From Microbacterium murale (GTDB lineage: Bacteria > Actinomycetota > Actinomycetes > Actinomycetales > Microbacteriaceae): a DNA stretch of 64,000 nucleotides. The stretch spans positions 186,001-250,000 of the forward strand of contig NZ_BMCM01000001.1 in NCBI RefSeq assembly GCF_014635185.1, read 5' to 3'. Both the position numbers and the translations under genes were made by a program. This document shows positions 1,013 through 30,793 of this stretch, in pieces. Under the pieces are notes generated by a model. The model was not told where the DNA came from. It saw only the letters and a program-made list of their open reading frames with translations, and ran no database searches. Numbering within the stretch: the first letter of the stretch is position 1; each line of letters starts with the position of its first letter.

Positions 1013-2104
1013 TTACACCCGTGCGCCGAGCTCGGCGAGTGATGCCGCGATCCGCACGATGGGCGCGAGAGACTCTTCCTCGCCGATGGTGATGCGGATG
1101 CCGTCCTCACCGTATCCACGGACGATGAGCCCCGCGTCGGCGAAGGCCGCCACCGCGCGGGCGGTGCCGAGGCCGGTGGGCAGCCACACGAAATTCGCCT
1201 GCGATCGGGGAACAGTCCAGCCGCTCTCACGAATCGCCTGCGCGAGCCGGTCGCGCCGCTCGGCGATCACGCGCACGCGTTCGAGGAGGGCGGGCTCGGC
1301 GTCGAGGCTGGCCAGCGCCGCCTCCTCGCCGTGCGCAGTCACGGAGAGCGGGATGCCGGCGATGCGCGCGGCCTCGAGCACGCGAGGGTGCCCGATAGCG
1401 TACCCGACCCGCAGCCCGGCCAGTCCGTACGCCTTGGAGAACGTGCGCAGCACGACGACGTTCTCGTGTCCGGCGGCGACGACGCGTCGCCCGTCGACGA
1501 CGCCGGCATCCGTCGCGAACTCGGCGTAGGCCTCATCGAGCAGCACGAGCGCACCGGGCGGCACCCTCGCGAGGAACGCGTCGAACGCCGCCTGTGTCAC
1601 AGCGGTTCCCGAGGGGTTGTTCGGGCTGCACACGACGATGAGCCGGGTGCGCTCTGTGATGGCGTCCGCCATCGCGTCGAGGTCGTGACGCTCATCCGCA
1701 TCCAGGGCCACCGCGATCGGCACTGCCCCGGAGACGTCCGCCATCCAGGGATAGCCGTCGAAGGATCGCCAGGCGAAGAGCAGCTCGTCTCCCGGTTCGC
1801 ACAGCGCCAGGGCGAACTGCTGCAGCAGCGATGTGGAGCCCGCGGTCACGTGCACGGCATCCGCGCCGACGCCGAAGCGCTCCGCGAGCCGCGCGCGCAG
1901 CCGTGGCGCCGACGCGTCCGGGTAGCGATTGAAAGAGACGGTCCGGTGCACGGCATCCACTACCCCCGGGAGTGGGCCGAAGGGATTCTCGTTGCTGGAG
2001 AGCTTGAACGCGTCCGCTCCCGCCTGGGCGCCCTGCTGGTACGCGGATCGTGCGGCGATGCGTGCGCGTGCCGCGATCGGCGGCGTAGCCGACCACGACC
2101 GCAT
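1013..2104 (-). CDS. HisC-like/aromatic aminotransferase (class I/II PLP enzyme)
   Basis: A 363-residue fold-type I aminotransferase of the histidinol-phosphate/aromatic aminotransferase group. Visible motifs are SNENPFGPLPG near the N-terminus, CSPNNPSG, LLDEAYAEF with the aspartate that contacts the PLP nitrogen, FSKAYGLAGLRVGY with the PLP lysine at about K224, and the C-terminal IRITIG phosphate/carboxylate arginine region. I chose the ATG at 2104 because it overlaps the upstream stop as TGATG, suggesting translational coupling; an ATG 24 nt upstream is in frame but lies inside the neighbour. No his genes are nearby, and it is the last gene of a catabolic run, so transamination of the amino acid released by the M20 hydrolase is a better guess than histidine synthesis. 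Its substrate cannot be fixed from sequence. Confidence 0.85.
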   Translation of the reverse strand: MRSWSATPPIAARARIAARSAYQQGAQAGADAFKLSSNENPFGPLPGVVDAVHRTVSFNRYPDASAPRLRARLAERFGVGADAVHVTAGSTSLLQQFALALCEPGDELLFAWRSFDGYPWMADVSGAVPIAVALDADERHDLDAMADAITERTRLIVVCSPNNPSGTAVTQAAFDAFLARVPPGALVLLDEAYAEFATDAGVVDGRRVVAAGHENVVVLRTFSKAYGLAGLRVGYAIGHPRVLEAARIAGIPLSVTAHGEEAALASLDAEPALLERVRVIAERRDRLAQAIRESGWTVPRSQANFVWLPTGLGTARAVAAFADAGLIVRGYGEDGIRITIGEEESLAPIVRIAASLAELGARV

Positions 2105-3285
2105 CAGACGCGCTCCAGACGTCGCCATGCGAGTTCGGCGAGCACTGAGGCCTGCAATCCGAGCACCGAGTCGTCGAACACCGCACGTTCGGAGTGCAGC
2201 GGCCCGGAGTCCACGTCGGGCGCAGCGCCGAGGAACACGAGCGTTCCAGGGACCTCTTCGAGCACGTACGCGAAGTCCTCTGATGCCATCGACGGCACCT
2301 CGAGGCGAATGACACGCTCGGCCCCGACCAGATCGTCGAGCACGTCGAGCACGAAGGCGGTCTCAGCGGGGTCGTTATAGGTCACCGGGTACGAGGCGAT
2401 GAACTCGGCGTCCAGCGTGCAGCCGTTCGCTTCGGCGATTCCCGTGAGCATCTTCGGCAGCTGTTCACGGACTGTCTCCAACGTCGCCTTCGAGAGCGTC
2501 CTGATGTTCGCCTCCAGCTGCACCTCGGCCGCCAGCACGTTACTCGCGGCAGAGTCGCTGCTGAGGCGAGTGATCGAGATCACCGCCTGGTCGGTGGCGG
2601 GAAGACGGCGCGCGGCGAACGTCTGCACCGCGAGGATGAGCTGCGCCGCCACAGGGACGGGGTCGATGCCGTTCTGCGGGAAAGCGGCATGCCCGCCCGT
2701 ACCTCGCAGTGTCATGCGCAGCGCGCTCGCGCTGGCCATCATCGAGCCCTGCCGGGTGACGAGCTGCCCGCGCTCGAGCGTGCATTCGACGTGGATCGCG
2801 TATGCCGCGACGGGGCGCTCGCCCGCGACCTCCAGCACACCCTCGTCGAGCATGATCCGGCCGCCGGCCTGCCCTTCTTCCCCGGGCTGGAACATGAAGA
2901 TCACGGTTCCGGGGAGTTCGTCGCGACGTGCGACCAGGAGACGGATCGCACCCAGAAGACCCGCCATGTGGAGATCGTGCCCGCACGCGTGCATGCGTCC
3001 GGACGTCGAGGCGTAGTCGAGGCCGGTGGCCTCGCGCACCGGCAGGCCGTCCATGTCGGCGCGCAGCAGCACGACCGGCCCTGGTCTCACACCTCGAAGC
3101 ACGGCGGTCACCGAGGTGAGGGCGGTGCCGGTCGTGATCTCCAGCCCGAGTCCGGCGAGTTCGCGCAGGAGGACCTCTTGCGTGCGCGGCAGATCGAGAC
3201 CGAGCTCGACCACCTGGTGCAGCTCGCGCCTGACCGCGATCAGGCTGTCCTGCAGTACCGCGGCATCCGCCTCGAATCGCGTCAT
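2104..3285 (-). CDS. M20 family metallo-amidohydrolase (N-acyl/N-carbamoyl amino acid hydrolase type)
   Basis: A 393-residue member of the M20D group (hippurate hydrolase, IAA-amino-acid hydrolase, N-acyl-amino-acid amidohydrolase). The metal-site motifs are intact: RADMDGLPV, then MHACGHDLHMAG with C101 and H103, then PGEEGQAGG with the catalytic Glu pair, and a late SEDFAYVLEEVPG region. These enzymes cut the amide bond of N-acyl amino acids in the cytoplasm with one or two divalent metals. It is coupled (TGATG) to the aminotransferase downstream. Within the hydantoin-type cluster, a natural role is hydrolysis of the ring-opened N-carbamoyl or N-acyl amino acid, but that is inference. An N-acetyl-diaminopimelate or plain peptidase role is less supported. 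Confidence 0.85.
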   Translation of the reverse strand: MTRFEADAAVLQDSLIAVRRELHQVVELGLDLPRTQEVLLRELAGLGLEITTGTALTSVTAVLRGVRPGPVVLLRADMDGLPVREATGLDYASTSGRMHACGHDLHMAGLLGAIRLLVARRDELPGTVIFMFQPGEEGQAGGRIMLDEGVLEVAGERPVAAYAIHVECTLERGQLVTRQGSMMASASALRMTLRGTGGHAAFPQNGIDPVPVAAQLILAVQTFAARRLPATDQAVISITRLSSDSAASNVLAAEVQLEANIRTLSKATLETVREQLPKMLTGIAEANGCTLDAEFIASYPVTYNDPAETAFVLDVLDDLVGAERVIRLEVPSMASEDFAYVLEEVPGTLVFLGAAPDVDSGPLHSERAVFDDSVLGLQASVLAELAWRRLERV

Positions 3286-3308
3286 CAGAACTGCATCCTC
3301 TCGCCGAG

Positions 3309-3377
3309 CACTGGCACCGCGTCCAGGTGGTCACTGGCACCGCGTCCAGGTGGTCACTGGCACCGCGTCCAGGTGGT
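3309..3377. repeat. Three perfect tandem copies of a 23-bp unit
   Basis: The copies are at 3309-3331, 3332-3354 and 3355-3377, without mismatch. The unit begins CACTGGCACC and ends CCAGGTGGT. Inside each unit is CACC-N7-GGTG, and across each junction is CCAG-N7-CTGG, so the array is a ladder of short inverted repeats. It lies in the 182-nt gap between the MOSC reductase and the M20 gene (both minus), just upstream of the M20 start. A TATGAT -10-like hexamer on the minus strand at 3419-3424 would place the array in the leader of an M20 transcript, but no good -35 is seen. It could be a set of regulator sites or a small minisatellite. Confidence 0.9.
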
Positions 3378-3467
3378 CCGAGCGTATTCAGCGAGAAGGA
3401 TCCGCAGAATGTGCGCCGATCATACGGATGGCTGATTCCGGTGTGCGAATCCCCCAGAGCGAAGTGA

Positions 3468-5240
3468 TCAGGCTTCGGAGTCGGCCGGCGGCTCGACGAC
3501 CACGAGATCGGAGAGCGGATAGGCGATGCACAGAAGCGCGCGACGGGTGCCGTCGACGGCGACGGACTCTCCTCTGTCGATCTCGCCGAAAAGCAGTCGC
3601 GCCTCACACGTACGACAGGTGCCGGCGCGGCAGTCGGAAGGCAGTTCCAGTCCGCTGTCCTCAGCGAGCTCGAGGAGCGTCTGCTCCCCGGTCGCGACCC
3701 AGGTCTTCTCGAGTCCGCGTGATGCGTAGACGACGGTCGCGTCCGCCTGGCGCCGAGGTGCCGACGGATCGACCGCGCTCGGAGCGAACTCCTCCGCGAA
3801 CACGTGATCCGGGTTCGCGCCGGCAGCGATCAGCCCTTCCTGCACCGCATCGTTGAACTCGACAGGGCCGCACACGTACATGTCGCTCTCGAACCAGGGG
3901 ATGCTCGCCCTGCCGTCGGGCACCGAAAGATAGTTTCCCCGCATCACGTCGATGACCCGCTCGGCGGTGATCCGTCCGCGGTGCACTGATGCGCGATCGG
4001 GCGCCGCGGCCTCCGGCACGGCGTCATCTGGAGCAGCGGAATAGAAGTAGTGCAGGTTCAGATCGTCGTGCGCTCCGAAGAGCTCGTCGAGTTTTTCGCG
4101 GAAGGCGGTGTGCTCAGGCGTCCGCGACGCGTAGAGCAGCCACAGCGGCGGCACGTGCCCGCGCGCGAGATGGGATCGGATCATCGCCATCATCGGGGTG
4201 ATGCCGATCCCCGCAGCGATGAGGACCACCGGCCGGAAACTGCCGCGATCGAGGCGGAAACGACCCGCCGGCGAACGCAGTTCGACGTGAAGCTCGCCAC
4301 GCGCCGCCCGGAACAGAGCACCGCTGCCCAGACCGCCGGAGAGGCGCTTGACCGTGATCCGGAACCGGTCGGGTTCGCCCGCGAAGTCCGAGAGGCTCCA
4401 GGTCCGCACGATCGGCTGCGCGCCGGGAGCGCTCAAGCGCACGACGACGTGCTGTCCGGCGCGGAATGCCGGAAGGATGCCACCGTCCGAGGGCTTGAGC
4501 GAGAAAGAGCGCACATCGGCGGTCTCCTCGACGATCTCGTCGATCTCGAACGGGCGCCATCCCCTCCAGGCACCGGGAGAATTCCGCGCATCCCGATCGA
4601 GTCCCGCCAGCTTGAGCGTCAGAGTACCCCGCACCGTCGCGCTGAGGTGCTCGGATGCGAGCGCCCTGTCGATCGTCTCGCGCTGCACGGTCGTCACCCC
4701 GGTACCGGAGTCGCACAACAACGACAGGTCTGCGACCGAGGGCATCCCCTCGCCCCCACCGAGCAGGACGAGATCGTCTCCCGGGCGGACGACTCCCGGC
4801 TCGATCACCCCGAAGTAGGCTCCTGAGCGGCCGGACAGACGGAAGCGCCGCATGAAGGTCTTCGGCTGTCCGAGCCGCCACGTGAGCTTCCAGCACGGCA
4901 CTCTCGGACCGGTGACGACGATCGTGGCGGTGCCCAGCCGATATCGGTCACCGACTCGCAGCTGCGTCTGATCGAGCGTGTCCAACGTCAGATTCTCCGC
5001 GAAATGACCGTCATCCCAGTCGTCGCGCGCAACGCCGAGCTCCTCGGACCAGTAGTCATAGCTTTCGTGGTCGAAGGCGTACAGGTGGTCGCTGTGCACC
5101 GCGACCTCGTCTCCGGCGGCTCCGGTCGTCGTGATGACCCACGGTTCCGGCACCGGCGACTTCACGTATGCGGTGCGAACGTTCTCACCATCGATCAACT
5201 GGGTGCGGATCTTTCCCGCGCTGAAGGCGATGAGGTGCAT
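3468..5240 (-). CDS. MOSC domain - FAD/NAD(P) reductase - [2Fe-2S] ferredoxin fusion
   Basis: A 590-residue three-part redox protein. Residues about 1-220 are a MOSC domain (YiiM-like) with its characteristic cysteine in the GPRVPCWK segment, followed by the 3-alpha linker. Residues about 230-480 are a phthalate-dioxygenase-reductase-like FAD/NAD(P) unit, with RTWSLSD for flavin binding and AAGIGITPMMAM for the nicotinamide nucleotide. The C-terminus is a plant-type ferredoxin with C537-x4-C542-x2-C545-x25-C571. MOSC proteins bind molybdenum cofactor or act as sulfur carriers; relatives reduce N-hydroxylated compounds. The cytoplasmic fusion could pass electrons from NAD(P)H through the iron-sulfur centre to the MOSC active site. 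It lies in the run that includes the desulfurase-like DUF917 gene, which makes a role in sulfur or N-oxide chemistry attractive but unproven. Confidence 0.87.
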   Translation of the reverse strand: MHLIAFSAGKIRTQLIDGENVRTAYVKSPVPEPWVITTTGAAGDEVAVHSDHLYAFDHESYDYWSEELGVARDDWDDGHFAENLTLDTLDQTQLRVGDRYRLGTATIVVTGPRVPCWKLTWRLGQPKTFMRRFRLSGRSGAYFGVIEPGVVRPGDDLVLLGGGEGMPSVADLSLLCDSGTGVTTVQRETIDRALASEHLSATVRGTLTLKLAGLDRDARNSPGAWRGWRPFEIDEIVEETADVRSFSLKPSDGGILPAFRAGQHVVVRLSAPGAQPIVRTWSLSDFAGEPDRFRITVKRLSGGLGSGALFRAARGELHVELRSPAGRFRLDRGSFRPVVLIAAGIGITPMMAMIRSHLARGHVPPLWLLYASRTPEHTAFREKLDELFGAHDDLNLHYFYSAAPDDAVPEAAAPDRASVHRGRITAERVIDVMRGNYLSVPDGRASIPWFESDMYVCGPVEFNDAVQEGLIAAGANPDHVFAEEFAPSAVDPSAPRRQADATVVYASRGLEKTWVATGEQTLLELAEDSGLELPSDCRAGTCRTCEARLLFGEIDRGESVAVDGTRRALLCIAYPLSDLVVVEPPADSEA

Positions 5241-5264
5241 CAGGTGCGCCCCGGCCCTCCCGCG

Positions 5265-6041
5265 TCAGGCATCTTCGAACTCCATCTTCCGGCCGAGGAC
5301 CGGAACCGCGGTGAGCAGCTCCCGAGTGTACGACTCCGACGGTGCCTGCAGCAGAGATTCCGTCTCTCCTCGTTCGACGATCCGCCCGTCGCGCATCACG
5401 GCGATCTCGTCGCTGATGTAGCGCACGACCGCGAGGTTGTGCGAGATGAACAGCATCGTCAGGTCCAGCCGCTGCTGCAGATCACGCAGCAGGTTCAGGA
5501 CCGTGGACTGCACTGAGACGTCCAGCGCGCTGGTCACCTCGTCTGCGATGAGAATCTCCGGATCGCCCGCGAGCGCCCTGGCGATGGTGATCCGCTGGCG
5601 CTGGCCACCGGAGAAGGACTTCGGCAGCTCCCCCGCCCTGGCCGGGTCGAGATCGACCTGCCGGAGCAGCTCGGCGACGCGGTCGCGACGAGCCTGGCGG
5701 GAGAGGTCGCGACCCGTCGCTCTCAGCCCCTCCGCGATGGATTCGCCGATCGGCATCCGCGGGTCGAGTGCGGAGAACGGATCCTGGAACACCATCTGGA
5801 TGCGCCGACGGGCGGTCCGCGCCTCGCGTCGACGTCCGACCGAGCTGACACCGTGCACGCGGATGTCGCCCGAGTGCACCGGGGCCAGCCCCACAGCGGC
5901 GTTCGCGATCGTCGACTTACCGGAGCCCGACTCGCCGACGAGCCCGAGCGTGCGTCCGGCCGGCACCTCGAGGGACACCCCGGATACGACCTCTCGCCGC
6001 CCGTACCGAACATGCAGATCGTGGAGTTCCAGTGCGCTCAC
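5265..6041 (-). CDS. Peptide/nickel-type ABC transporter ATPase (OppF/DppF-like)
   Basis: A 258-residue cytoplasmic ATPase with Walker [11 protein letters not shown]-loop QMVFQDPFSALDPR, signature FSGGQRQR, Walker B ILIADE and the H-switch SHNLAVV. The C-terminal TRELLTAVPVLG is the short tail typical of OppF/DppF. It overlaps the fused permease-ATPase upstream by 4 nt (ATGA). It is the second nucleotide-binding domain of the importer encoded by 5265-10498; the first is carried on the fusion protein. Confidence 0.9.
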   Translation of the reverse strand: MSALELHDLHVRYGRREVVSGVSLEVPAGRTLGLVGESGSGKSTIANAAVGLAPVHSGDIRVHGVSSVGRRREARTARRRIQMVFQDPFSALDPRMPIGESIAEGLRATGRDLSRQARRDRVAELLRQVDLDPARAGELPKSFSGGQRQRITIARALAGDPEILIADEVTSALDVSVQSTVLNLLRDLQQRLDLTMLFISHNLAVVRYISDEIAVMRDGRIVERGETESLLQAPSESYTRELLTAVPVLGRKMEFEDA

Positions 6042-7864
6042 GCGGACACCTCCTCAAGCTCAGAATGCGAAAGATCACCGATGACGGGCAGCGGGCGCGT
6101 GCGGTCCGAGCTCATGTCCGGAAGGCAGGCGATCAGCGCCCGCGTGTACGGGTGCGTGGCCTGCTCCTTGATGCGCGCAGCATCCAGTTCTTCGACGATC
6201 TCGCCGTCTTTCATCACGACCACCCGATCGCAGAAGCCGGAGACGAGGGCGATGTCATGAGAGATGAAGACGATGCCCGCGCCGGTGGCGTGCTGCGCCC
6301 GGCGCAGTACGCCGAGCACTTGACGCTGCACCGTGACGTCGAGCGCCGTCGTCGGTTCGTCGGCGATGATCAGACGCGGATGTCCGGTCAGCGCGATGCC
6401 GATCATCGCGCGCTGCCGCATCCCGCCGGAGAACTGGTGCGGGTAATCGCCGAGTCGTGCGGACGGATCGGGGATGCCGACGGCATCCAACCCCTCGACA
6501 GCGCGGGCGCGCGCCTGCGCCCTGCTCATACCGAGATGCTGCTGAGGCACTTCGGTCAGCTGGCGTCCGATCGTCAGCGCCGGGTTCAGCGAGGTGAGCG
6601 GATCCTGGAAGATGACGCCGAGTTCGACACCGAGACGCTTCCGGTCGGCGGACGTGAGCTTCGCAGCGAGGTCGATGTCGTCGAAACGACGCACCTCGGC
6701 TTCGACGATGGCCGGCGCTTCCAGAAGACCCGCGAGCGCCATCGCTGTCAGGGATTTTCCCGAGCCCGACTCGCCGACGATGCCGACGACCTCACCGGAG
6801 CGGACCCGCAGACTCACACCGCGGACACGCTCGACGATCCCGCCGTCGCCATCGGGGTAGGAGATGTGGAGGTTCTGCACCTCGGCGAGCGCCGTATCGC
6901 TGTCGTTCGTGGACGCAGGAGCTGCCGCCGTCGACCGGGATCCGACGCGTGTGAGCGCCGCCAGCCGGCTCGCACGGGCGACCGCCCGCAGCCCCTGACC
7001 AGGCTGTTCGGCGATCGTCTCAGCGATCATGGTGAACACGAGCCCCGAGAAGACGATGGCTATGCCTGGGCCGATGGCTGCCATGGGGTTGGTGTAGAGA
7101 TGCCCGAGACCTTCGTTGAGCAGTCGACCCCAGTCGTATTCCGGCGCCTGCACGCCGAGTCCGAGGAACGAGAGCCCGGCGAACGCGAGCAGGGTGACGC
7201 TGGCGGATGCCGCGGACTGCACGAGCAGCGGGTTCGCGATGTTCGGCAGCACATGCTTGAACATGATCCCCAAGGGGCCGACACCGACGACCCGCGCCGC
7301 ACGCACGTAGTCCTGATCGGCGACGGACGACGCCATGTTGTAGACGAGTCTCGTGATGCTGGGGATGCCGGCCAGGCCGATCGCCAGCATCGCCCCGGTC
7401 GCCGAAGCGTCCCAGATCACCGTGAAGAACAGCACGAGCAGCAGCCACGGGAACGCCAGCAGCATGTCCATCACCCAGATCAGCGCCCGTCTGGCGTGCT
7501 TGGGGAGAATGGCCGCCGTGAGCCCGATGATGAGGCCGCCGCCGATGAGCATCGCCGTGGCTCCCGCGGTGAGCAGCAGCGAGAGGCGCGCGGCGACCAT
7601 GACCCTGGCGAAGATGTCGCGGCCGATGTCGTCGGTGCCGAAGACGTGCTGGGCGCTCGCGCCGGACCATCGCTCGGCGATGTTGCGTTCCGTGGCCGCC
7701 GTCATCCACGTGTCGGGGCCGATGATCGCGATCGTGACCAGCACGGCGATGCCGATCAGTGCGGCGATGCCTGGCACGCTGATCCAACGCGATCGGCGCC
7801 GCGGCTTCTCGGGTACGGTGCTGATGAGGTCGGCATCCGGATTACGGGGAACGATCGTCGTCAT
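6038..7864 (-). CDS. Fused ABC permease (DppC-like) and ATPase (DppD-like)
   Basis: A single 608-residue frame holds both halves. Residues about 1-310 are an OppC/DppC-type inner-membrane permease: an N-terminal membrane segment, the periplasmic [11 protein letters not shown] motif, and the EAA-like coupling loop [19 protein letters not shown]. Residues about 340-608 are an ATPase with [28 protein letters not shown] and [12 protein letters not shown]. These parts are normally two proteins. The ATG at 7864 has an AAGGGTG ribosome site and lies 9 nt after the upstream stop; the much longer open frame upstream of it runs in the wrong frame over the next permease. There is no stop or frameshift at the joint, so the fusion looks genuine. 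An assembly error would need two coincident changes. Confidence 0.88.
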
Positions 7865-7872
7865 CTCGACAC

Positions 7873-8895
7873 TCACCCTTCTGCGATCGTGGTGCGCGGA
7901 TCGATCGTGATGAGGATCAGATCGACGACGAGGTTCACGGCGAGGACCATGGCGGCATACACGAGCACCATGCCCTGCACCATCGGGTAGTCCTTCGTGC
8001 CGACGGCTGCGACGAGCGTGCTGCCGGTACCGGGGATCGCGAACACGGTCTCGATGATGACCGTACCGGCGACGAGCCCGGAGAGAAGGAGCCCTCCCAC
8101 GGTCAACGTGGCGGTGATGATGTTCGGCAGCGCGTGCCGGAGCAGGATCAGCCGCTGCGGCAGGCGCTTCGCCCGTGCGGTGGCGATGTAGGTCGAATCC
8201 AGCACCTTGATCATCTCCACCTGCACGATCCGCGCGAGGTAGGCCATCGGACCGAGCGCGAGCCCGAGCACCGGCAGCACGGCGTTCGGCGCACCACCCC
8301 ATCCGGCCGGGGGGAACAGCCCCAGCCACATGCTGAACAGGGCGATCAGTCCGACCGAGAGCAGGAAATCCGGTACGGCGATGAGCACACCGAGCAGACC
8401 GGACACTCCGCTGTTGAGCGAGCGACCCCGACCGGTGCGTGCGAGCAGCGCCGCGCCCATGCCGATCGGCAGCGCGCCGATCACGGCGACGATGAAGCCC
8501 AGCGCGGCGAGGCTCAGCGTGGTCGGAAAACGAGACACGATCGTGCCGGTGACCGAGAGACCCGACTGGATCGACGTGCCGAGATCTCCCTGCAGCAGTC
8601 CCGCCAGGTAGTCGAGGAGCTGCTGAGGTACCGGCTTGTCCAGCCCGAGGTCGGCCCGAGTGCTCTCGACCAGGGCCGCCGGGGCGGTGGGCCCGAGGGC
8701 CGCCCGCACCGGATCACCCGGGACGAAGTGGATGAGGAAGAACGCGGCGAGGACCACGACCAGAAGACTGACGATCAGCCGTCCGATCCGCCGGATGGCG
8801 AAGTCGGTGCGCGGCGAGCGCCGCTGCTGCAGTTCTCGCAGTTGCAGCAGCCGTCCGGTGACGGGTGTTCCCTGACGGGGCTCGGTCGTGGTCAT
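7873..8895 (-). CDS. Peptide/nickel-type ABC transporter permease (OppB/DppB-like)
   Basis: A 340-residue inner-membrane permease. After a basic 30-residue N-tail comes a first helix (IVSLLVVVLAAFFLIHFVPG) ending in the conserved FVPGDPVRAALG motif of this family. Further helices and the cytoplasmic loop TARAKRLPQRLILLRHALPN follow; this loop couples to the ATPase. It pairs with the permease half of the downstream fusion. The gene starts 10 nt after the binding-protein stop and belongs to the same transcription unit. Confidence 0.9.
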   Translation of the reverse strand: MTTTEPRQGTPVTGRLLQLRELQQRRSPRTDFAIRRIGRLIVSLLVVVLAAFFLIHFVPGDPVRAALGPTAPAALVESTRADLGLDKPVPQQLLDYLAGLLQGDLGTSIQSGLSVTGTIVSRFPTTLSLAALGFIVAVIGALPIGMGAALLARTGRGRSLNSGVSGLLGVLIAVPDFLLSVGLIALFSMWLGLFPPAGWGGAPNAVLPVLGLALGPMAYLARIVQVEMIKVLDSTYIATARAKRLPQRLILLRHALPNIITATLTVGGLLLSGLVAGTVIIETVFAIPGTGSTLVAAVGTKDYPMVQGMVLVYAAMVLAVNLVVDLILITIDPRTTIAEG

Positions 8896-8905
8896 CGCCT
8901 GCGGC

Positions 8906-10498
8906 TCACTCGGTCATTCGGATCGTGACCGGCTGGAGGTAGTCGGTGATCTCGAACGTTGCACCGGACATGTACGTCGGGCGGATGGTTCCGGTCAGCA
9001 GCAGCGTGTGGAAGTTCTCCACCACGGTCTTCTCCGCCTGCTGCCAGTATCCGCAGGCCTCGTCGGCATCTGCCGCTGCACGAGCCTGATCGGCGAACGC
9101 GTTGTACTCCTCGTCATCGACGCCCATGAAGTTCAGGCCGCCTTCTTCGGGGAAGGCGCCTCCGTAGAAGAGGTCCTGCGTCACGGGGCTTCCGACGCCG
9201 ATCTGGATCCAGCCGGTGTCGTAGTCGAAGGTCTCGTAGAGATACTCCGACCAGCTGGCACCGTCCATCGCGATCAGCTCGGTAGTGATGCCGAGCTCGT
9301 CCCAGTCCTCGGCGACGAGTTCAGCCGCCGACGCATGAGCGGTGGAGGTGGCGTCGTAGATGAAGTTGATGGTCAGCGGCTCGCCGTCCTTGCTGCGCTG
9401 TCCGTCGGCGCCTTCCACCCAGCCCGCCTCGTCCAGCAGTTCGGCTGCGCGCTCCGTGTCGGAATCCGGACGGTCCCAGACCGGCTCCTCGCTGAAGCAG
9501 GTGAACGGCGCGTCGGTGATCCAGGAGGTCAGCTCGACGGGGCGACCGCCGCTGACGACCTCGGCGGTGTCCTCGTGGTTGAAGCCCAGGATGAGCGCTT
9601 CACGGACCAGCGGGTCGTGCGTGGGCCGATCCGCTCGCTCGTTGAAGAGCATCTGACCGATCGGATTGATGATTCCGGCGAACTCGTAGCCGGCGGCCTC
9701 GATGCGATCCTGGTCCGGCCCCTCGACCGCAGCCGCGTTGAGCTCGCCGGAGAGCAGCAGGTTCGTGCGGGTTGACGTGTCCGTGACGACGCTGATCTCC
9801 AGGGACCCTGGCAGACCAACGGTGTCGGAGGTGACGTCGTTCGGTCCCCAGGTGTAGTCGTCTCGTGCCTCGAAGAGATAGCGATCCGCCTTCACGTCCG
9901 TCAGCTCGTAGAGCCCGGTTCCGTTGGAGGCCTCCTCGAGGCTCGACGGGTTCTCGAGCCCAGCCTCGCCGACCATCATGATGCTGCCGACGATGCTCGC
10001 CAGGAACGGGTCGGAGGCGTCTGCCGTGACCTCCAGGGTCGACCCGCTGCCGGTGGCCTTGAGGCCCGCGGGCAGGACGTCCGCCAGCACTGTGGCGTTG
10101 GCGGGGTCGGCATGGTAGTTGAGGTTCGCGGCCGCGACTTCGGCGGTGAACTCCGATCCGTCGTGGAAGGTCACGCCGTCCTTGAGTTCGAACGTCACCG
10201 ACTTCCCGTCGTCTCCCAGCTCCCAGGAATCGGCGAGCCACGGCGATTGCTCGCCCTCGGCATCCGTATAGATCAGGGTCTCGTAGGCGTAGGTGTTGAT
10301 CTGGATCTCCTGCGGCTGCGTGGCGGTCATCGGGATGATGCTGCCCACCTCCGGGAAGATCGCTTGGGTGAAGGTTCCACCGGAGACGTAGTCTCCCTCG
10401 GGCGACCCTTGGCCGCCTGCGGAACCCGAGCATGACGCCAATGTCATGGCGAGGACGACGAGTCCGGCTCCCACCGGTACTGCGATACTGCGTTTCAT
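8906..10498 (-). CDS. ABC transporter substrate-binding lipoprotein, family 5
   Basis: A 530-residue family 5 (peptide/opine/nickel) binding protein. The N-terminus is a lipoprotein signal with lipobox LASC and lipidation at C23, so it is tethered to the outside of the membrane. The family signature region with WLADSWELGDDGKSVTFELKDGVTF is clear, as is the C-terminal DYLQPVTIRM. The ribosome site GAGGAG stands 6 nt before ATG. It lies directly behind the hydantoinase gene, and the ligand is probably the compound handled by that enzyme; the sequence alone does not name it. Confidence 0.9.
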   Translation of the reverse strand: MKRSIAVPVGAGLVVLAMTLASCSGSAGGQGSPEGDYVSGGTFTQAIFPEVGSIIPMTATQPQEIQINTYAYETLIYTDAEGEQSPWLADSWELGDDGKSVTFELKDGVTFHDGSEFTAEVAAANLNYHADPANATVLADVLPAGLKATGSGSTLEVTADASDPFLASIVGSIMMVGEAGLENPSSLEEASNGTGLYELTDVKADRYLFEARDDYTWGPNDVTSDTVGLPGSLEISVVTDTSTRTNLLLSGELNAAAVEGPDQDRIEAAGYEFAGIINPIGQMLFNERADRPTHDPLVREALILGFNHEDTAEVVSGGRPVELTSWITDAPFTCFSEEPVWDRPDSDTERAAELLDEAGWVEGADGQRSKDGEPLTINFIYDATSTAHASAAELVAEDWDELGITTELIAMDGASWSEYLYETFDYDTGWIQIGVGSPVTQDLFYGGAFPEEGGLNFMGVDDEEYNAFADQARAAADADEACGYWQQAEKTVVENFHTLLLTGTIRPTYMSGATFEITDYLQPVTIRMTE

Positions 10499-10554
10499 TG
10501 CAATCTCCTCTTTCGGGTGATGATGTCCATCGGGTGTGGTGCAGGGCTGGTGCG

Positions 10555-12129
10555 TCAGCCGGAGATAGCTCCGGCTGTGAGTCGGGCGAGCGGTCCGGCC
10601 GCCTTCACGGAGACGTTCACGGTCGGCTGCGCCGTATAGGGCACATGGGTCTCGAGGATCTCGACGACGGAGACCTCGAGCGGATCGGCTCCGGCCTGGA
10701 TGGCCTTGGCGATGGCCGCTTCGGATGCCTGCTCGATGGCCGCCTCACGCTCACCCATCGGCGCCATCTGATCGGCACGTCCACCGGCGAGCGAGATCGC
10801 CGCGCCAACGGCGTTGGCGACGCCGCCGTGATCCGGACGCAGCACTTCTCCGGCACTGGGAAGACGATCGGGAACGAGGAATCCTCCGCCGCCGACGACG
10901 ACGAGCGGGATATCGGCCCGGCCGAGCGACAGGCGCTCGACGGCGGCATCCAGTCGATCGGTGATGATGGCGAGGGCCGCCTCAAGTGCGGCTGCCGTGG
11001 CGGGCGGCAATGCGGGGAGCCGGCGACCGGCCACAGGGCTGCTGATGAGTGCAGCGGCGTCCGTCAGCGTCGGCGTCGAGCCGCCGAACAGCAGACCCTC
11101 CCGATCGATCCGGTAGCCGACCGACTCCGGTCCGACGCGACCGGTGGCGACATCGACGATCGTGCCGCCGCCGATCCCCACGGAGAGCACGTCCGGCATC
11201 CGGAAGTTCGTGCGCACGCCACCGATCTCGCGGGGCAGCGTCGACTCACGGGGGAACCCGCCGACCACGACGCCGAGGTCGCTGGTCGTGCCGCCCACAT
11301 CCACGACGATCGCGTTGTCGTGGCCGGAGAGGTATGCAGCGCCTCTGATCGAGTTCGCCGGACCAGAACCGATCGTGAGCACCGGGTACTGGGCCGCGTA
11401 GTCGAGCGACATGAGCGTGCCGTCGTTCTGTGCGAAGAAGGTCTGCGCGTCGAGTCCCTCCTCAGCGACGACGGTGACGAGAGCATCCGTGACCGCGAGC
11501 GCGACGCTGTACAGCGCGGCGTTGAGCACGGTGGCGTTCTCGCGTTCGAGCAGCCCGGTCGGGCCGATGTCCTGGCTGAGGAAGACGCGCGTGTCCTGGC
11601 CGAGGTGATTTCGCAGCATCTCTGCGACCTCGAGCTCCTGCTCGGGCGAGGACGGGCTGAAGATCCCGGCAACGGCGATCGCGTCGAAGCCGCCCAGTCC
11701 GTCGACGAATCGGCGGATTCCGTCACGGTCCAGCGGCGAGATCGGCGTGCCGTCGACCATATGGCCGCCGCCGACCATGGCAGAGCCGGCGAGGACCATG
11801 TCGGCGAGGTCCTGCGGCCACCCGGTGAGCGGAGGGAACTCCGTCGCCGCCGGCGCGCCGAGGCGGATCATCGCGACCCTGTCGAGGCCGCGACGCTGCA
11901 CGATCGCGTTCGTCGCATGAGTGGTGCCGAGCATGACGCGGGAGACACGGCTGCGCTCCGCGCCGACCGCCGCCAGCACGTCGGCGATACTGGCGCGGAT
12001 GCCGCCGGTGACGTCGTCGGTCGTCGGTCGCTTCGTCTCGGCGAGGACGGTGCCGTACCCGTCGAGGATGACGGCGTCGGTGTTCGTTCCACCGACGTCG
12101 ACGCCGAGGGCGAGATCACGGGCGGTCAT
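10555..12129 (-). CDS. Hydantoinase/oxoprolinase family protein (HyuA-like, ATP-dependent)
   Basis: A 524-residue protein of the acetate-kinase-fold hydantoinase A/oxoprolinase family. It has the N-terminal phosphate-binding GVDVGGTNTDAVI, a GTTHATNAIVQRR motif, the second phosphate loop VVDVGGTTSDLG, and a VGIGGGTIVDV segment. Relatives open hydantoin or 5-oxoproline rings with ATP. No HyuB partner is present. Instead the upstream neighbour is a DUF917 protein, with a 4-nt overlap (ATGA at 12126-12129). This HyuA-DUF917 pairing is recurrent in bacteria and suggests a joint enzyme or successive steps. The importer genes follow immediately. Confidence 0.87.
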   Translation of the reverse strand: MTARDLALGVDVGGTNTDAVILDGYGTVLAETKRPTTDDVTGGIRASIADVLAAVGAERSRVSRVMLGTTHATNAIVQRRGLDRVAMIRLGAPAATEFPPLTGWPQDLADMVLAGSAMVGGGHMVDGTPISPLDRDGIRRFVDGLGGFDAIAVAGIFSPSSPEQELEVAEMLRNHLGQDTRVFLSQDIGPTGLLERENATVLNAALYSVALAVTDALVTVVAEEGLDAQTFFAQNDGTLMSLDYAAQYPVLTIGSGPANSIRGAAYLSGHDNAIVVDVGGTTSDLGVVVGGFPRESTLPREIGGVRTNFRMPDVLSVGIGGGTIVDVATGRVGPESVGYRIDREGLLFGGSTPTLTDAAALISSPVAGRRLPALPPATAAALEAALAIITDRLDAAVERLSLGRADIPLVVVGGGGFLVPDRLPSAGEVLRPDHGGVANAVGAAISLAGGRADQMAPMGEREAAIEQASEAAIAKAIQAGADPLEVSVVEILETHVPYTAQPTVNVSVKAAGPLARLTAGAISG

Positions 12130-13232
12130 CGGGCTGCTCCCTCGAAAGGCGTGTACGGAAGGTCGTAGCCGAAGGCGGCTGGTCCCGCGAGCTCAAGACC
12201 GCGCGGAGTGCGCCACACCGGATCGCATGGCCACGCGAGCACGGAGACCCGTTGCCCGAAGCGGAGCATCTCGGTCGTGATGGCATGCCCGGTCTCGGTG
12301 TCGATGATGGTGATGAGATCCGGCACGCTGACGAGCACCTCGCCGTCCTCGAGCACCAGGAGGTTCTCGTTCTGCAGCTCCAGCCGCTGCAATCGACCGC
12401 GGTCGTCGCCGATGCCGGTGATCGTCACCGATCCGCGGACGAATCCGCCGACGGTGCGACGGTCGAGATCGGTGATCTTTCCGCTGAGGAGCACCCGGGC
12501 GTCCAGCTCGGCGGCGATCGCCGCCACGGGCTCCGATGCGCTCAGGAGAGCGTGGCCCACACGGATCGCCGCGCTCACGGTGCCCTCGATGACGGCGCCG
12601 CGCACGGTGTCGGCCGTCATCGGGTAGTGGGCGCCGATGCAGATCGATCCACTCGCGACCGTGAGCGCGCGCGCATGCCGCTCCAGCCAGTGCAGGTCGA
12701 CCGTCTTCATGACGGTGATGTTGCCGACAACGTCGCTCTGCACCGCCCAGTCGCAGTGCACTCCCGCGACGTTCATGGCCATCATCGCGGCATCCGGGAA
12801 CGCGCGGCCCATGCCGTCGGCGTCGAGCACCTGCAAGCCCAGCTGCGCGGCCCAGCCGATCGGACGGACACCGTTGCTGCCGCCGATCTCCGCCGCCATC
12901 AGCGTCGTGACAGGGCGACCGAGGAGCCGCTCGGCCTCTTCCAGAAGAGCGTGGATCTGCCCCTTCGAGGACAGCATCTCGATGCCGACCGTCGGTGCGC
13001 CGATGCCGGACATCAGGATCACGACATCGTCCGGCCCGAGGTCGTCGACGGTCACGAGCCGGACGGGGCCGTGCGTACGAAGTTCGCGTTCGACCATGGT
13101 CTGTGCGCCGTACACCTCACCGCCCCCGCCGGTGCCGAAGATCGCCGTGCCGATGCCGAGGGCTGCGATGTCGCCCTCGGTGATCTCGGTGATGCGCACC
13201 GCTGTCTGCGGAGCGGGAGATGTCTGAGCCAT
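12126..13232 (-). CDS. DUF917 family protein (S-methyl-thiohydantoin desulfurase-like)
   Basis: A 368-residue DUF917 protein, a family more recently linked by name to S-methyl-thiohydantoin desulfurases. Typical features are the early glycine-rich GTAIFGTGGGGEVYG, the MSGIGAPTVGIEM loop, the AAEIGGSNGVRPIGWAA segment and LDADGMGRAFPD. I place the start at ATG 13232. The longer in-frame start at 13307 would overlap the divergent regulator, whereas 13232 has a -10 box TACGGT ending 6 nt upstream, so the mRNA is probably leaderless. It is the first gene of the long minus-strand cluster and is translationally coupled to the hydantoinase. The family assignment is secure; the reaction is inferred. 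Confidence 0.85.
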   Translation of the reverse strand: MAQTSPAPQTAVRITEITEGDIAALGIGTAIFGTGGGGEVYGAQTMVERELRTHGPVRLVTVDDLGPDDVVILMSGIGAPTVGIEMLSSKGQIHALLEEAERLLGRPVTTLMAAEIGGSNGVRPIGWAAQLGLQVLDADGMGRAFPDAAMMAMNVAGVHCDWAVQSDVVGNITVMKTVDLHWLERHARALTVASGSICIGAHYPMTADTVRGAVIEGTVSAAIRVGHALLSASEPVAAIAAELDARVLLSGKITDLDRRTVGGFVRGSVTITGIGDDRGRLQRLELQNENLLVLEDGEVLVSVPDLITIIDTETGHAITTEMLRFGQRVSVLAWPCDPVWRTPRGLELAGPAAFGYDLPYTPFEGAAR

Positions 13233-13277: not shown

Positions 13278-13305
13278 ATCCAGTGATTCCTGCCAGACTG
13301 TGCTC

Positions 13306-14781
13306 ATGGCACAGTACTCGATCGAGGATCTCCGAACGGATGCCGAACGCCTTGGCCTGCGGCATCAGGCCGGCCCCGTCGATGATCGAGCGATCGAGCG
13401 CGTGGACCTCGTCGCCGTCGACGGCCTCAGTTCCACGGCGGCCGGCACCCTCGTCATCATCACCGGCGACGAGCAGCCGCCGCCGTTCCGCATCGATGTG
13501 GCGCTGCGCCAGGCGAGCGCGAGGGGCCTCGCCGGTGTCGTCTTCGCCTCCGACCTCGCGCTGCCGGAGACGGCGGCCGTCCTCGCCGGCCGCGCCGGCG
13601 TCCCGGTGTTCGCCGCGCCGGGCACGAAGGCCGCCGACCTCGCGAAGGCGATCGACAGGGCGATCGCCGGCGGCGCCTCCGAGGCCATGATGCGCGGAGC
13701 GCTGGCGGTGGAACGGGCGACAGCCGCCGCCGCATCCGACGGCACGATCGACGCGATCCTCGCCGCCGCGTCCGCAGCTCTGGGCATCGAGGTGGCGCTC
13801 GTCGAGGATCCGTCCGTCTCCTGGTCGCAGAGCGATGCCGTCTGCATCGGCGAGGTGCCGATCGGCCGCGTCGTCGCCTCCTCACCGGATGCCGCCACAG
13901 GTGTCGCCGTCCCCGTGATCGCCTCGCTGCTCTCACGCGCGGTGCAGCGCAGCACCCGCGACCGCTACGCCTCCACGCAGTCCCGCGCCGACCTGCTGAT
14001 CGAGCTCGTCCTCGCGGAGTCCTCACGCGTGGAGGGGTTCGTCGGACAGGCCGCACGGCTGGGGCTGCCCCTGCAGCAGTCGCACGTCGCGGCATGGCTG
14101 GCCCCGACGAGCGCGGCCGATCCCCAGGCTCGTGCCCCGCGCACTGTGCAACCGGCACTCGAACTCTTCGCGCTGCAACTCGTCGAAGCACGCGACGAGA
14201 TGTGGCACCTCGCGTTCCTGCAGGACGATCTCATGCTCGTGTGCACCGAGGAGCACGGGGCAGCCGACCACCAGCGCCGGGTGCGTGAGGTCGCCGTGCG
14301 CATCCAGGAGCAGGCGCAGGTGCTCGGTGGGCCCGGCTGGGCGTACACCCTTGGTCTCGGCACACCGCAGCTGGGCGCGATCGGTGTGCGTCAGTCCGCC
14401 GCAGAGGCGCGGATCGCTGCGGAGTCGGCCATCGCGGCTGGGCGCTTGGGCGGGGTAGAGCTCACCGATGTCACTGGACTGCGCCGTGTTCTGCTGGACG
14501 TGTACGCCTCCCCGATCAGCAGGGATCTGCTGCACGACATCCTGCATCCGCTCGACGCCCTCGGCCCGGAGCGCGCCCTCACCGCGGTGCGCACACTGCA
14601 GGTGTATCTCGCCCACGGCAGCTCGCTCGTGCACGCCGGTCGCGAGCTGATGATGCATCCGAACGGCGTCGGCTACCGGATGCGGCAGATCCGCGAGCGC
14701 CTGGATGTCGATCTGGATGACCCCGACACCCGCTTCGCCGTCGAGCTCGCCTGCCGGGTGCGACTGCTCGGCGCCGTCTGA
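13306..14781 (+). CDS. PucR family transcriptional regulator
   Basis: A 491-residue regulator. The first 130 residues resemble the purine-catabolism regulator-like (PucR) sensor domain: VDLVAVDGLSSTAAGTLVII, then alternating beta-alpha units. A middle domain follows. The C-terminus is a CdaR/PucR helix-turn-helix, with RTLQVYLAHGSSLVHAGREL then HPNGVGYRMRQIRERL. Such proteins activate or repress nitrogen-compound catabolism on sensing a metabolite. ATG 13306 was preferred over GTG 13300, 6 nt upstream, because neither has a clear ribosome site and ATG is spaced better from a possible TTGAGC-N16-CAGACT promoter. It is transcribed away from the DUF917-hydantoinase cluster and shares its control region, so it is the likely regulator. 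Confidence 0.85.
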   Translation: MAQYSIEDLRTDAERLGLRHQAGPVDDRAIERVDLVAVDGLSSTAAGTLVIITGDEQPPPFRIDVALRQASARGLAGVVFASDLALPETAAVLAGRAGVPVFAAPGTKAADLAKAIDRAIAGGASEAMMRGALAVERATAAAASDGTIDAILAAASAALGIEVALVEDPSVSWSQSDAVCIGEVPIGRVVASSPDAATGVAVPVIASLLSRAVQRSTRDRYASTQSRADLLIELVLAESSRVEGFVGQAARLGLPLQQSHVAAWLAPTSAADPQARAPRTVQPALELFALQLVEARDEMWHLAFLQDDLMLVCTEEHGAADHQRRVREVAVRIQEQAQVLGGPGWAYTLGLGTPQLGAIGVRQSAAEARIAAESAIAAGRLGGVELTDVTGLRRVLLDVYASPISRDLLHDILHPLDALGPERALTAVRTLQVYLAHGSSLVHAGRELMMHPNGVGYRMRQIRERLDVDLDDPDTRFAVELACRVRLLGAV

Positions 14782-14876: not shown

Positions 14877-16016
14877 ATGCCCGGTGAGCCGAATGAACCA
14901 GAGCCGTTCCAGCCGTTGCGCGGCATCCGCGTCATCGACTTCACCCGACTCCTCGCGGGACCCTACGCGACCATGACGCTCGCCGAGCTCGGCGCCGACG
15001 TCATCAAGATCGAGAAGCCGGATGCCGGCGATGACACCCGCGCATGGGGCCCGCCGTTCGTGGGCGAGGACAGCGCCTACTTCCACGCGATCAATCGCGG
15101 CAAGCGGAGTGTCGCGCTCGACCTCACGGTCGCCGCCGATCGAGAGAAGGCCATCGGCCTGATCGCCGATGCGGATGTCGTCGTCGAGAGCTTCCGCCCT
15201 GGAGTCGCCGAGCGGCTCGGCGTCGGCCCCGGCGTGCTGACGGAGCGGTTCCCCCATCTCATCTACGCGTCGATCAGCGGCTTCTCCCCCGTCGGCCCCA
15301 TGTGGGCGGAGCCGGGGACGGCCGTGACGGTGGAGGCGGAGTCCGGGCTCATGCAGTTGACCGGCTACGCGGACAGCGGACCGGTGCGCTCCGGCGTCGC
15401 GATGGTCGACATCGCCACCGGCATGTCGATGATCAACGGTGTGCTCGCCGCACTCCTGGAGCGCACCCGTACCGGCAAGGGGCGCCGTATCGAGGTCTCG
15501 CTGTTCGCCACCGCGCTCTCCTCTCTCGGCACCGTGATCGCAAGCGTCTCGGCCGGAGGCCCCGCTCCCCGGCCGTGGGGCAGCGGGCATCCGTCGATCG
15601 TGCCGTACCGCGCCTTCGCCGCCGCCGACGGGCATGCCGTGCTGGGCGCGACCAACGACCCGATGTTCGCCCGTCTCGCCACAGCGCTCGACATGGAGGA
15701 TGAGCTCGGCCGCGAGCAGTGGCGACGCAACGAAGGACGCGTGCGAGACCGCGACACACTCGAGGCACTGCTCGCGGAACGGCTCGCGCTTCTCACCGTC
15801 GATGAGATCGCCGAGCGGCTGCAGCGGCATCGTGTGCTGATCGCCCGCGTGCGCCCGGCTGACGAAGCGGCTCGCGGCGCCCAGGCCACTGCCATGGGCA
15901 TGGTCTTCGAAGACGAGGGCGTACTCATCGCCCGCTCCGCTCTCGGAACGAACGGCACCGCCGTGCTCGGCCGCGCTCCCCTGCTGGGCGAGCACAACGA
16001 GGAACTGCTCGGCTGA
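14877..16016 (+). CDS. Family III CoA-transferase (CaiB/BaiF)
   Basis: A 379-residue type III CoA-transferase that moves CoA from one carboxylic acid thioester to another. The N-terminal hallmark IRVIDFTRLLAGPYATMTLAELGADVIKIEKP is present in substance (GP-x2-T/C-x4-DLGA region), then RGKRSVALDL, VVVESFRPGVAERLG and LIYASISGFS. The length is near the usual 380-410. It stands behind the PucR gene on the same strand, with its own possible promoter, and is convergent with the amidohydrolase genes. It is more distant from the other two CoA-transferases in the window than those are from each other. Substrates are unknown. Confidence 0.85.
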   Translation: MPGEPNEPEPFQPLRGIRVIDFTRLLAGPYATMTLAELGADVIKIEKPDAGDDTRAWGPPFVGEDSAYFHAINRGKRSVALDLTVAADREKAIGLIADADVVVESFRPGVAERLGVGPGVLTERFPHLIYASISGFSPVGPMWAEPGTAVTVEAESGLMQLTGYADSGPVRSGVAMVDIATGMSMINGVLAALLERTRTGKGRRIEVSLFATALSSLGTVIASVSAGGPAPRPWGSGHPSIVPYRAFAAADGHAVLGATNDPMFARLATALDMEDELGREQWRRNEGRVRDRDTLEALLAERLALLTVDEIAERLQRHRVLIARVRPADEAARGAQATAMGMVFEDEGVLIARSALGTNGTAVLGRAPLLGEHNEELLG

Positions 16017-17622: not shown

Positions 17623-17629
17623 CCGTTCC

Positions 17630-20176: not shown

Positions 20177-20805
20177 GCCGACACCTCGTTGACAGCCCGC
20201 ATACGCGCGGCGAGGGCGGGGTTCTGATACGGCCCTGGCTTGCCGAGTGCGTCGATCACGCGGCCGATGACGCCTGCGGGTTTGTCCTGGCTCATCTTGT
20301 CCTTCGCCTCGAAACGGGTGACTCTCATTCGGAATCCGACGGTGCCGTGCACGATGCGCGCCGCGTAGTCGGCGTTCTCCAGCGTGCGGTTCATCAGATA
20401 GGGCTCGGGCAGCGGGTGCTCGAAGTGGTCGACGAGCCGCTCCAGCACCTGGAGGTTCTCTTCGTCGGAGAGGAGCTCCGGCGTGCCGTACAGGTGGGCG
20501 ACGGCGAAGTTCCAGGTGGGCACGGCCGGTGACGCGTCGTACCAGCTCGGTGACACATAGCCCTGTGGTCCGTAGATGATCACCATCGCCTCATGGCCGC
20601 CGAGCTCGTGCAGACGCTCGTCTGGACGACCGACGTGGCTGAGCAGCACGATGCCGTCGGCGTCGTCATCCAGCAGGATCGGATAGTGCGAGGCGATGAG
20701 GCCCTTTCCCGGCACGAAGCTGACGATGCTCGCCCATGGGTTCTCGCGTACGAGCTCGCGGATCGTCGCGACGTCGTCGAGCAGGTAGTCGGTGTTGGGC
20801 CTCAT
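20173..20805 (-). CDS. PaiB-like FMN-binding flavoprotein, copy A
   Basis: A 210-residue protein of the PaiB family, a split-barrel FMN-binding fold annotated historically as a negative regulator of sporulation in Bacillus. The sequence shows IASHYPILLDDD, LLSHVGRPDERLHELG, the YGPQGYVSPSWYDA segment and VPTWNFAVAHLYGTPELL, then a C-terminal KMSQDKPAGVIGRVIDAL. There is no DNA-binding domain, so an enzyme or flavin-carrier role is more likely than repression. It sits between putA (11 nt away) and the cyclodeaminase (overlapping). A second copy at 44849 is also next to a YtcJ-like amidohydrolase. Confidence 0.82.
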   Translation of the reverse strand: MRPNTDYLLDDVATIRELVRENPWASIVSFVPGKGLIASHYPILLDDDADGIVLLSHVGRPDERLHELGGHEAMVIIYGPQGYVSPSWYDASPAVPTWNFAVAHLYGTPELLSDEENLQVLERLVDHFEHPLPEPYLMNRTLENADYAARIVHGTVGFRMRVTRFEAKDKMSQDKPAGVIGRVIDALGKPGPYQNPALAARMRAVNEVSA

Positions 20806-29646: not shown

Positions 29647-29737
29647 CGGCTACCTTCCCTCATAGGCAGCGGCCGGCTTCTGGCGCTGCGGTCTAGGAAA
29701 CACTATGAGGGGCGCTCGCAGCCGACGATGGGCGCAT

Positions 29738-29750: not shown

Positions 29751-29839
29751 CCCGCTGGTGTATGTCCATGTCACATCACTGCCGCTCGGCACCCGACCTA
29801 GACTCGCAGCACGCATCCGATGCACCCGAGGAGACCCAG

Positions 29840-30703: not shown

Positions 30704-30793
30704 CCGAGGACGCCCACGTTGATCAGGGAACCTGACATGCTCGACACTGGAGTCGTGCGCATCACCGCGCCGCTCGGCGAGGAAGGAGTCCGG

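Follow-up and report, generated by a model that had tools for sequence, protein, structure and literature searches.

A Microbacterium murale gene cluster with a DUF917-HyuA pair and its possible role in the catabolism of fungal hydroxamate siderophores

Introduction

A gene cluster of Microbacterium murale, in which a DUF917-HyuA pair is followed by a peptide-type importer, a MOSC fusion, an M20 amidohydrolase and a HisC-like aminotransferase, raises the question of which ring compound its products import and degrade. The cluster spans positions 1013..13232 of a stretch of 64,000 nucleotides (hereafter the window; positions 186,001 to 250,000 of contig NZ_BMCM01000001.1) in a host genome of 3.9 Mb. 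A preliminary description had named these genes and their order, all of which were found as described, and had proposed a complete cluster for a hydantoin- or thiohydantoin-like compound. To read these genes as a catabolic operon for import and ring opening is fair, but the cluster is not complete, since partner genes recurring in relatives run on to about 39.6 kb, and a hydantoin substrate leaves the mevalonate and ornithine catabolism genes among them unexplained. It is instead rather likely that the cluster forms one half, devoted to import and ring opening, of a region of about 39 kb for the import and catabolism of fungal hydroxamate siderophores, a substrate that we infer from gene content; the gene families, their conservation and their co-occurrence are observed.

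The use of hydroxamate siderophores as food by bacteria was reported as early as 1964 (Warren and Neilands, cited in PMC10866069; here and below, PMC articles are cited from the portions available to us). The reported growth on ferrichrome A (Pseudomonas FC1) or desferrioxamine B (Mesorhizobium, Azospirillum) resembles our proposal in that the iron-free siderophore serves as carbon source and amide or peptide bonds are hydrolyzed, whereas these reports, as far as the available part of PMC10866069 goes, are biochemical, concern other siderophores and name neither genes nor a consumer of anhydromevalonyl siderophores. Among the titles and beginnings of abstracts listed by a literature search, with most subscription journals outside its reach, none showed a gene set for the bacterial catabolism of fungal anhydromevalonyl siderophores.

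Genes for Mevalonate and Ornithine Catabolism beside the Cluster

The genes that point to the substrate lie on the minus strand, across the PucR gene from DUF917. Four of them could serve an acyl branch: a degradative 3-hydroxy-3-methylglutaryl-CoA (HMG-CoA) reductase (HMGR, 28375..29646; TIGR00532, 437.9 bits against a cut-off of 259.95), an HMG-CoA lyase (HMGL, 27383..28378; NF004283, 342.6 bits against 246), the class III CoA-transferase CoAT2 (26157..27386; PF02515) and a MaoC/FAS1-type hydratase (25342..26160; PF13452), which among solved structures is closest to itaconyl-CoA hydratase (8khg, 8.1e-35) and is a candidate anhydromevalonyl-CoA hydratase. Together they would suit a mevalonate-type acid that needs activation and hydration, namely anhydromevalonate. 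An ornithine cyclodeaminase (OCD, 19148..20176; NF005762, 543.9 bits against 350) and PutA, a proline dehydrogenase/glutamate-semialdehyde dehydrogenase (20817..24290; PF01619, PF00171), would suit ornithine. The two branches may be tied together by FMNb (20173..20805; PF04299), a relative of the N-hydroxylamine dehydratase NohD, of PaiB and of piperazate synthase, whose gene overlaps that of OCD by 4 nt (20173-20176). Curated NCBIfam cut-offs were passed by OCD, HMGR, HMGL and a SolA-like FAD amine oxidase (38517..39647, minus strand; NF008425, 300.5 bits against 257).

The combination of mevalonate-type acyl genes with N5-hydroxyornithine-type genes points to fungal hydroxamate siderophores such as fusarinine, coprogen and dimerumic acid, to our knowledge the only compound class that joins anhydromevalonyl with N5-hydroxyornithine. 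Two of these, dimerumic acid and coprogen, are built around a diketopiperazine, which would provide the DUF917-HyuA pair with a ring to open. Catabolism of mevalonate by a degradative HMG-CoA reductase and HMG-CoA lyase is familiar from Pseudomonas mevalonii, and the same two enzyme types occur here; in the window they are linked to genes for a CoA-transferase and a hydratase and to genes of the ornithine and N-hydroxylamine type, whereas bare reductase-lyase pairs occur in other Microbacterium loci. In the fungal siderophores, anhydromevalonyl derived from mevalonate is coupled to N5-hydroxyornithine, as stated for triacetylfusarinine C (TAFC) and coprogen (PMC3709128). The fungal biosynthesis of fusarinine and coprogen (SidA, SidI, SidH, SidF; PMC3709128) would share its intermediates, mevalonyl-CoA, anhydromevalonyl-CoA and N5-hydroxyornithine, with the bacterial route in reversed order. 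The likeness concerns the intermediates; the bacterial genes belong to catabolic families, with a CoA-transferase in place of the fungal ligase and a degradative HMGR.

Conservation and Co-Occurrence

The neighbourhood of the pair was compared in 45 relative loci, most of them about 20 kb long, selected with our own thresholds (DUF917 at least 55% and HyuA at least 60% identity; one genome is counted twice). The PucR-type regulator was kept in 43 of the 45 loci, the solute-binding protein in 42 and the M20 gene in 32, which bears out the preliminary assignment of M20 to the system. The same assignment for the HisC-like aminotransferase did not hold, as this gene (at least 60% identity) was found in a single locus, L071, the closest relative (DUF917 94% identical). 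HisC was rejected as a core gene, the M20 gene being followed by the next gene with no HisC in between in L034/L072 (one genome) and L073. A smaller form, with DUF917, HyuA and M20 and no adjacent importer, is present in L042 and L050.

Co-occurrence was counted in 217 Microbacterium genomes and in 299 genomes of the family; two genomes are common to both sets. DUF917 (E<=1e-100) was found in 25 of the 217 genomes and HMGR (E<=1e-30) in 30, in 24 of them at 77% identity or more and in six at 61-63%. The closer reductase type occurred in 22 of the 25 DUF917 genomes and in 2 of the 192 others (Fisher 8e-25), while reductases of any kind occurred in the same 22 and in 8 of the 192 (30 in total; Fisher 2e-20). 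In 19 of the 22 genomes the two genes lay within 20 kb on one contig, and in G258, G340 and G381 on different contigs. PF04299 proteins (E<=1e-20) are present in 198 of the 217 genomes; among the matches listed, the cluster-type FMNb (at least 63% identity) occurs in 32, comprising 24 of the 25 DUF917 genomes and 8 others (Fisher 5e-24), and these 32 include all 24 genomes with the reductase at 77% or more. OCD at 70% identity or more was found in 26 genomes, 21 of which also have DUF917 (Fisher 9e-21). In the family sample the reductase (E<=1e-30) was detected in 16 genomes, and the 10 in which it reached at least 74% identity all fell among the 18 with DUF917 at 60% or more.

The link of DUF917 and the block genes is specific to one reductase type, because six of the seven loci with the 61-63% reductase lack the block: L096-L100 and L109 hold both reductase and lyase, and none of M20, Amidohydro_3 (AH3), OCD, FMNb, hydratase or CoAT2 was detected in them (tblastn, E<=1e-12). 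In the seventh (L095, 1817-11737), a lyase and a 63% reductase have a remoter DUF917-HyuA pair (41% and 47%) nearby, which may represent a second, independent DUF917-reductase association. The block M20-AH3a-AH3b-OCD-FMNb-hydratase-CoAT2-HMGL-HMGR was also found in G410 and G478, both without DUF917 of this type, and FMNb adjoins OCD in L111 and L112 too, whose genomes belong to neither the DUF917 nor the reductase set.

FMNb and the NohD/Piperazate Synthase Group

The best PDB matches of FMNb were NohD (6.4e-29), PaiB (3.3e-27) and piperazate synthase (5.3e-21), the last of which acts on N5-hydroxyornithine (PMC13274692). Residues His57, Thr97, Tyr147 and Lys170 of FMNb were kept in 40 of 40 sequences with at least 55% identity (some genomes counted twice); these positions correspond to the heme-ligand His and the catalytic Thr, Tyr and Lys (PMC13274692) of the NohD/piperazate synthase group. 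The four remoter copies have Phe (one copy) or Ile (three copies) at position 147, where the aligned PaiB has Met. An Asp-Lys pair was considered as a further diagnostic feature, since FMNb Asp174/Lys175 follow Lys170 by 4 and 5 residues with the spacing of SbPZS Asp177/Lys178 (PMC13274692), and was dropped because PipS, KtzT and the first NohD entry have Glu-Gln there.

A second FMNb-AH3b pair (48% and 46%) was noticed on another contig of the host genome (C3, locus L120); FMNb relatives at about this identity occur in most Microbacterium genomes.

Proposed Pathway

The targets would be siderophores built of N5-anhydromevalonyl-N5-hydroxyornithine (fusarinine, coprogen and dimerumic acid types), used as a source of carbon and nitrogen. 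The iron-free peptide or its fragments would be taken up by family-5 importers. Ester-linked forms would be cut by an alpha/beta hydrolase (29705..30703, plus strand; PF00561), a candidate siderophore esterase, and diketopiperazine cores would probably be opened by DUF917 and HyuA at the expense of ATP. Peptide and hydroxamate amide bonds might then be cleaved by M20 (2104..3285; PF01546, PF07687, TIGR01891 above cut-off) and by two Amidohydro_3 enzymes (PF07969), AH3a (16036..17721) and AH3b (17630..19102), all encoded on the minus strand; AH3b, whose gene adjoins FMNb homologues in L113-L118 and L120, is the candidate hydroxamate hydrolase. From anhydromevalonate, the CoA-transferase and the MaoC-like hydratase would yield mevalonyl-CoA/mevalonate, from which the degradative HMGR would form HMG-CoA, to be split by the lyase into acetyl-CoA and acetoacetate. 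N5-hydroxyornithine would be dehydrated by the NohD-like FMNb to an imine or semialdehyde, which PutA could oxidize to glutamate, and ornithine could reach PutA through proline by the action of the cyclodeaminase. A step peculiar to this strain would probably be the NAD(P)H-driven reduction of the N-OH group to the amide or amine by the MOSC fusion, which would feed the ornithine branch.

Taken in full detail, as a gene-level pathway in which DUF917-HyuA is an ATP-driven hydrolase of diketopiperazines or cyclic hydroxamates, glutamate semialdehyde is formed from N5-hydroxyornithine by an NohD-like heme protein, anhydromevalonyl is burned via HMGR and the MOSC fusion is a siderophore N-O reductase, the scheme is tentative and on balance rather doubtful. 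If it is true, gene content would predict diet: genomes with the core and the reductase would use dimerumic acid or coprogen, those with the block and no core would use fusarinines, and those with the core and no reductase acetyl types such as rhodotorulic acid. The more general siderophore reading, if right, would give a genetic basis to the old observation that bacteria consume hydroxamate siderophores, assign a physiological role to DUF917-HyuA pairs and NohD-like proteins, and mark bacteria that may strip fungi of their iron carriers in soil and on plants, with a genomic test on offer.

Alternative Explanations

The substrate first proposed for the cluster was reconsidered on the basis of the DUF917-HyuA pair itself. 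DUF917 (12126..13232, minus strand), a putative ring-opening subunit, matches the S-Me-THD (DUF917) superfamily in its N- and C-terminal domains, above the Pfam cut-offs, and in fold. Its scores against S-methyl thiohydantoin desulfurase (NF058532, 115.6 bits, cut-off 450) and thiohydantoin desulfurase (NF058529, 94.7 bits, cut-off 440) are far below the cut-offs and do not support the desulfuration that the preliminary description had suggested, and M20 reached 38 bits against ergothioneine carbamoylase ErtE (NF058540, cut-off 520). HyuA (10555..12129, minus strand, 524 aa; PF05378 and PF01968 above cut-off) contains the N-terminal ATPase region of the hydantoinase/oxoprolinase family; the sequence match to Hydantoinase_A (PF01968) spans positions 1 to 172 of the 291 in the model, while fold alignments, with chains of acetone carboxylase, caprolactamase and N-methylhydantoinase, extend to residue 515-524. 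This short ATPase subunit has no HyuB partner among the window ORFs scanned, in which Hydantoinase_B had no match, the rest of the genome not having been searched for HyuB. A route in which a hydantoin or an ergothioneine-like thiohydantoin is imported as a ring, desulfurated by DUF917, opened by HyuA with ATP and deacylated by M20 would agree with these family assignments and with a report that cyclodipeptide-oxidase clusters are enriched in DUF917 genes, along with hydantoin racemases and oligopeptide importers (PMC11055893). Those clusters resemble ours in placing DUF917 beside peptide-type importers and peptidase-family genes and differ from it in that no cyclodipeptide oxidase or racemase family match was found among the window ORFs scanned. 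The missed cut-offs and the linked HMG-CoA, ornithine and NohD-like genes, which this route does not account for, led us to set it aside as improbable.

Several observations weigh against the siderophore reading, and some of them would favour a general use of diketopiperazines, with DUF917-HyuA opening the ring, peptidases and PutA finishing the degradation, and the mevalonate genes forming an independent catabolic operon that merely has an ecological niche and a genomic island in common with the pair. The Fisher values, which range from 3e-14 to 2e-25, ignore shared ancestry and are hence too small. DUF917 occurs in the absence of the reductase in G354, G372 and G506, and in the family sample no reductase was found at E<=1e-30 in 8 of the 18 genomes with DUF917 at 60% or more. 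None of the five genomes of the genus g51 has the reductase close to DUF917, as it is either far away or on a different contig, and the two g51 reductase loci read (L091, L092) have M20, both Amidohydro_3 genes, FMNb, lyase and reductase and lack CoAT2, hydratase and OCD. DUF917-HyuA pairs with family-5-like importer genes were also found in Streptomyces and Nonomuraea with no OCD, FMNb or HMGR within 18 kb; the DUF917-HyuA-importer module is thus not specific to siderophores. PutA is nearby in only 6 of the 45 relative loci. G338, one of the six genomes with the "plain" reductase, is a weak control, since a further short contig of this genome (L113) carries an FMNb of the cluster type together with AH3b and PutA. 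In FMNb, Asn63 and Asn66 of piperazate synthase, which contact the heme propionates, are replaced by Gly59 and Asp62 in 40 of 40 sequences, and PaiB retains several of the shared residues and yet is reported to be devoid of the activity (PMC13274692). The diketopiperazine alternative is further favoured by a Paenarthrobacter plasmid on which a DUF917-HyuA pair accompanies a membrane dipeptidase and a racemase. It does not explain why the reductase accompanies DUF917 in 22 of 25 genomes against 2 of 192, nor why, where this DUF917 is missing (G410, G478), the reductase is kept with FMNb, OCD and M20, and we regard it as unlikely. A biosynthetic cluster for a product containing piperazate or anhydromevalonyl, which the resemblance of FMNb to piperazate synthase might suggest, is very improbable: neither a nonribosomal peptide synthetase nor an ornithine N-monooxygenase was matched among the window ORFs scanned (a part of all ORFs), HMGR and HMGL both belong to catabolic types, and the ABC systems at 5-38 kb have their own solute-binding proteins, as importers do.

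The MOSC Fusion

The MOSC fusion (3468..5240, minus strand, 590 aa; PF03473, PF00970, PF00175, PF00111), a putative N-O reductase with FAD-, NAD- and [2Fe-2S]-binding parts, has the MOSC, flavin and [2Fe-2S] domains above cut-off and in this respect resembles YiiM-like proteins with flavin and [2Fe-2S] domains (PMC10637980). Cys116, the sole Cys in the MOSC match (residues 52-157), is probably the invariant Cys; the ferredoxin part has four Cys residues (537, 542, 545, 571), and the host genome encodes MoaA above cut-off, for the cofactor. The earlier statement that MOSC proteins reduce N-O compounds agrees with the literature: hydroxylamines and hydroxamic acids are among the compounds that the MOSC enzyme mARC reduces, and N-reduction has been seen for all MOSC proteins assayed in vitro (PMC10637980). 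Moreover, a fungal culture is reported to reduce siderophore hydroxamates to amides (PMC10866069).

The co-occurrence of this gene with DUF917/HyuA in relatives, whose absence the preliminary description had itself named as a refutation, was contradicted by the genomic data. At 50% identity or more the fusion was present in none of the 45 relative loci, and at E<=1e-30 it was found in 1 of the 217 Microbacterium genomes (the host) and in 2 of the 299 family genomes (the host and one at 32% identity). Being private to the host genome, it was rejected as a member of the conserved system. When compared with L071 by blastn, window positions 338-3457 aligned as one piece and the alignment restarted at 5276, indicating that the gene arrived as a clean, lineage-specific insertion of 1.8 kb (3458..5275).

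The fusion might accordingly be a passenger inserted by chance, a YiiM-like detoxifier of N-hydroxylated bases with no role in the pathway, and we give this explanation considerable weight, if somewhat short of an even chance. It would fit an insertion that comprises a single gene with no counterpart of comparable identity in any relative examined. Relatives occur in 81 plasmid records, and neither of the two examined gave a clear pathway: the Rhizobium one is flanked by genes for a DNA glycosylase and a pirin, and the Streptomyces one lies among transposases, adjoining an aminotransferase. On the other hand, the gene sits on the operon strand, 24 nt past the importer ATPase, its expected N-O reduction chemistry suits a hydroxamate, and the Rhizobium relative has importer and M20 genes upstream of it, at a distance of a few kb. 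In addition, loci L081-L085 carry beside the cluster a PPOX flavoprotein (Pfam, 5 of 5) and an NAD/[2Fe-2S] reductase (Pfam, in the three scanned). Participation of the fusion in the siderophore pathway is marginally favoured.

The pair in L081-L085 lies on the strand of the PucR gene (TIGR04025 for the flavoprotein of L081), and L121 has a similar reductase match. It was initially taken for a split MOSC and reductase pair, which was discarded because its first gene encodes a PPOX-type flavoprotein; a functional stand-in for MOSC is possible.

Gene Organisation and Additional Features

The DUF917 and HyuA genes overlap by 4 nt (ATGA), as previously described, and the DUF917 start at 13232 was likewise upheld over the longest-ORF start at 13307, the extension containing an in-frame stop in 7 of 11 loci (L034-L044). 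The importer, too, was correctly recognised in the preliminary description, with the correction that its second permease and first ATPase form one fused ORF (6038..7876; PF00528, PF00005). It further comprises a family-5 solute-binding protein (8906..10498; PF00496), a permease (7873..8895; PF00528, PF19300) and an ATPase (5265..6041; PF00005), all on the minus strand. Within the importer stretch (6038-10498) the solute-binding protein is 87% identical to that of L034 and 52% to that of L071, despite the 94% identity of DUF917 to L071; these identities suggest an exchange of the importer module among relatives.

The HisC/Pat-like aminotransferase (1013..2104, minus strand; NF002878 above cut-off), a recent addition, probably starts at 2104 with a TGATG shared with the M20 stop. 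A 23-bp tandem repeat in three perfect copies was observed at 3309-3378, between the MOSC and M20 genes. Divergent from DUF917 is the PucR-type regulator (13300..14781, plus strand; PF13556, PF17853), followed by a class III CoA-transferase (14877..16016, plus strand; PF02515) that is a variable neighbour. Beyond the alpha/beta hydrolase lie a second PucR-type regulator with a GAF domain (30719..32704, plus strand; PF13185, PF13556), a small cupin-like protein (32710..33135, minus strand), 63% identical by tblastn to an L060 protein and with an L052 homologue in an ORF matching Cupin_2, and a second family-5 peptide-type importer (33145..38370, minus strand; PF00005, PF00496, PF00528). Finally, the stretch 40661-55183 contains more SBP5, Amidohydro_3, GAF-PucR and class III CoA-transferase genes together with an FAD-oxidase/4Fe-4S protein, and is possibly a sister catabolic region.

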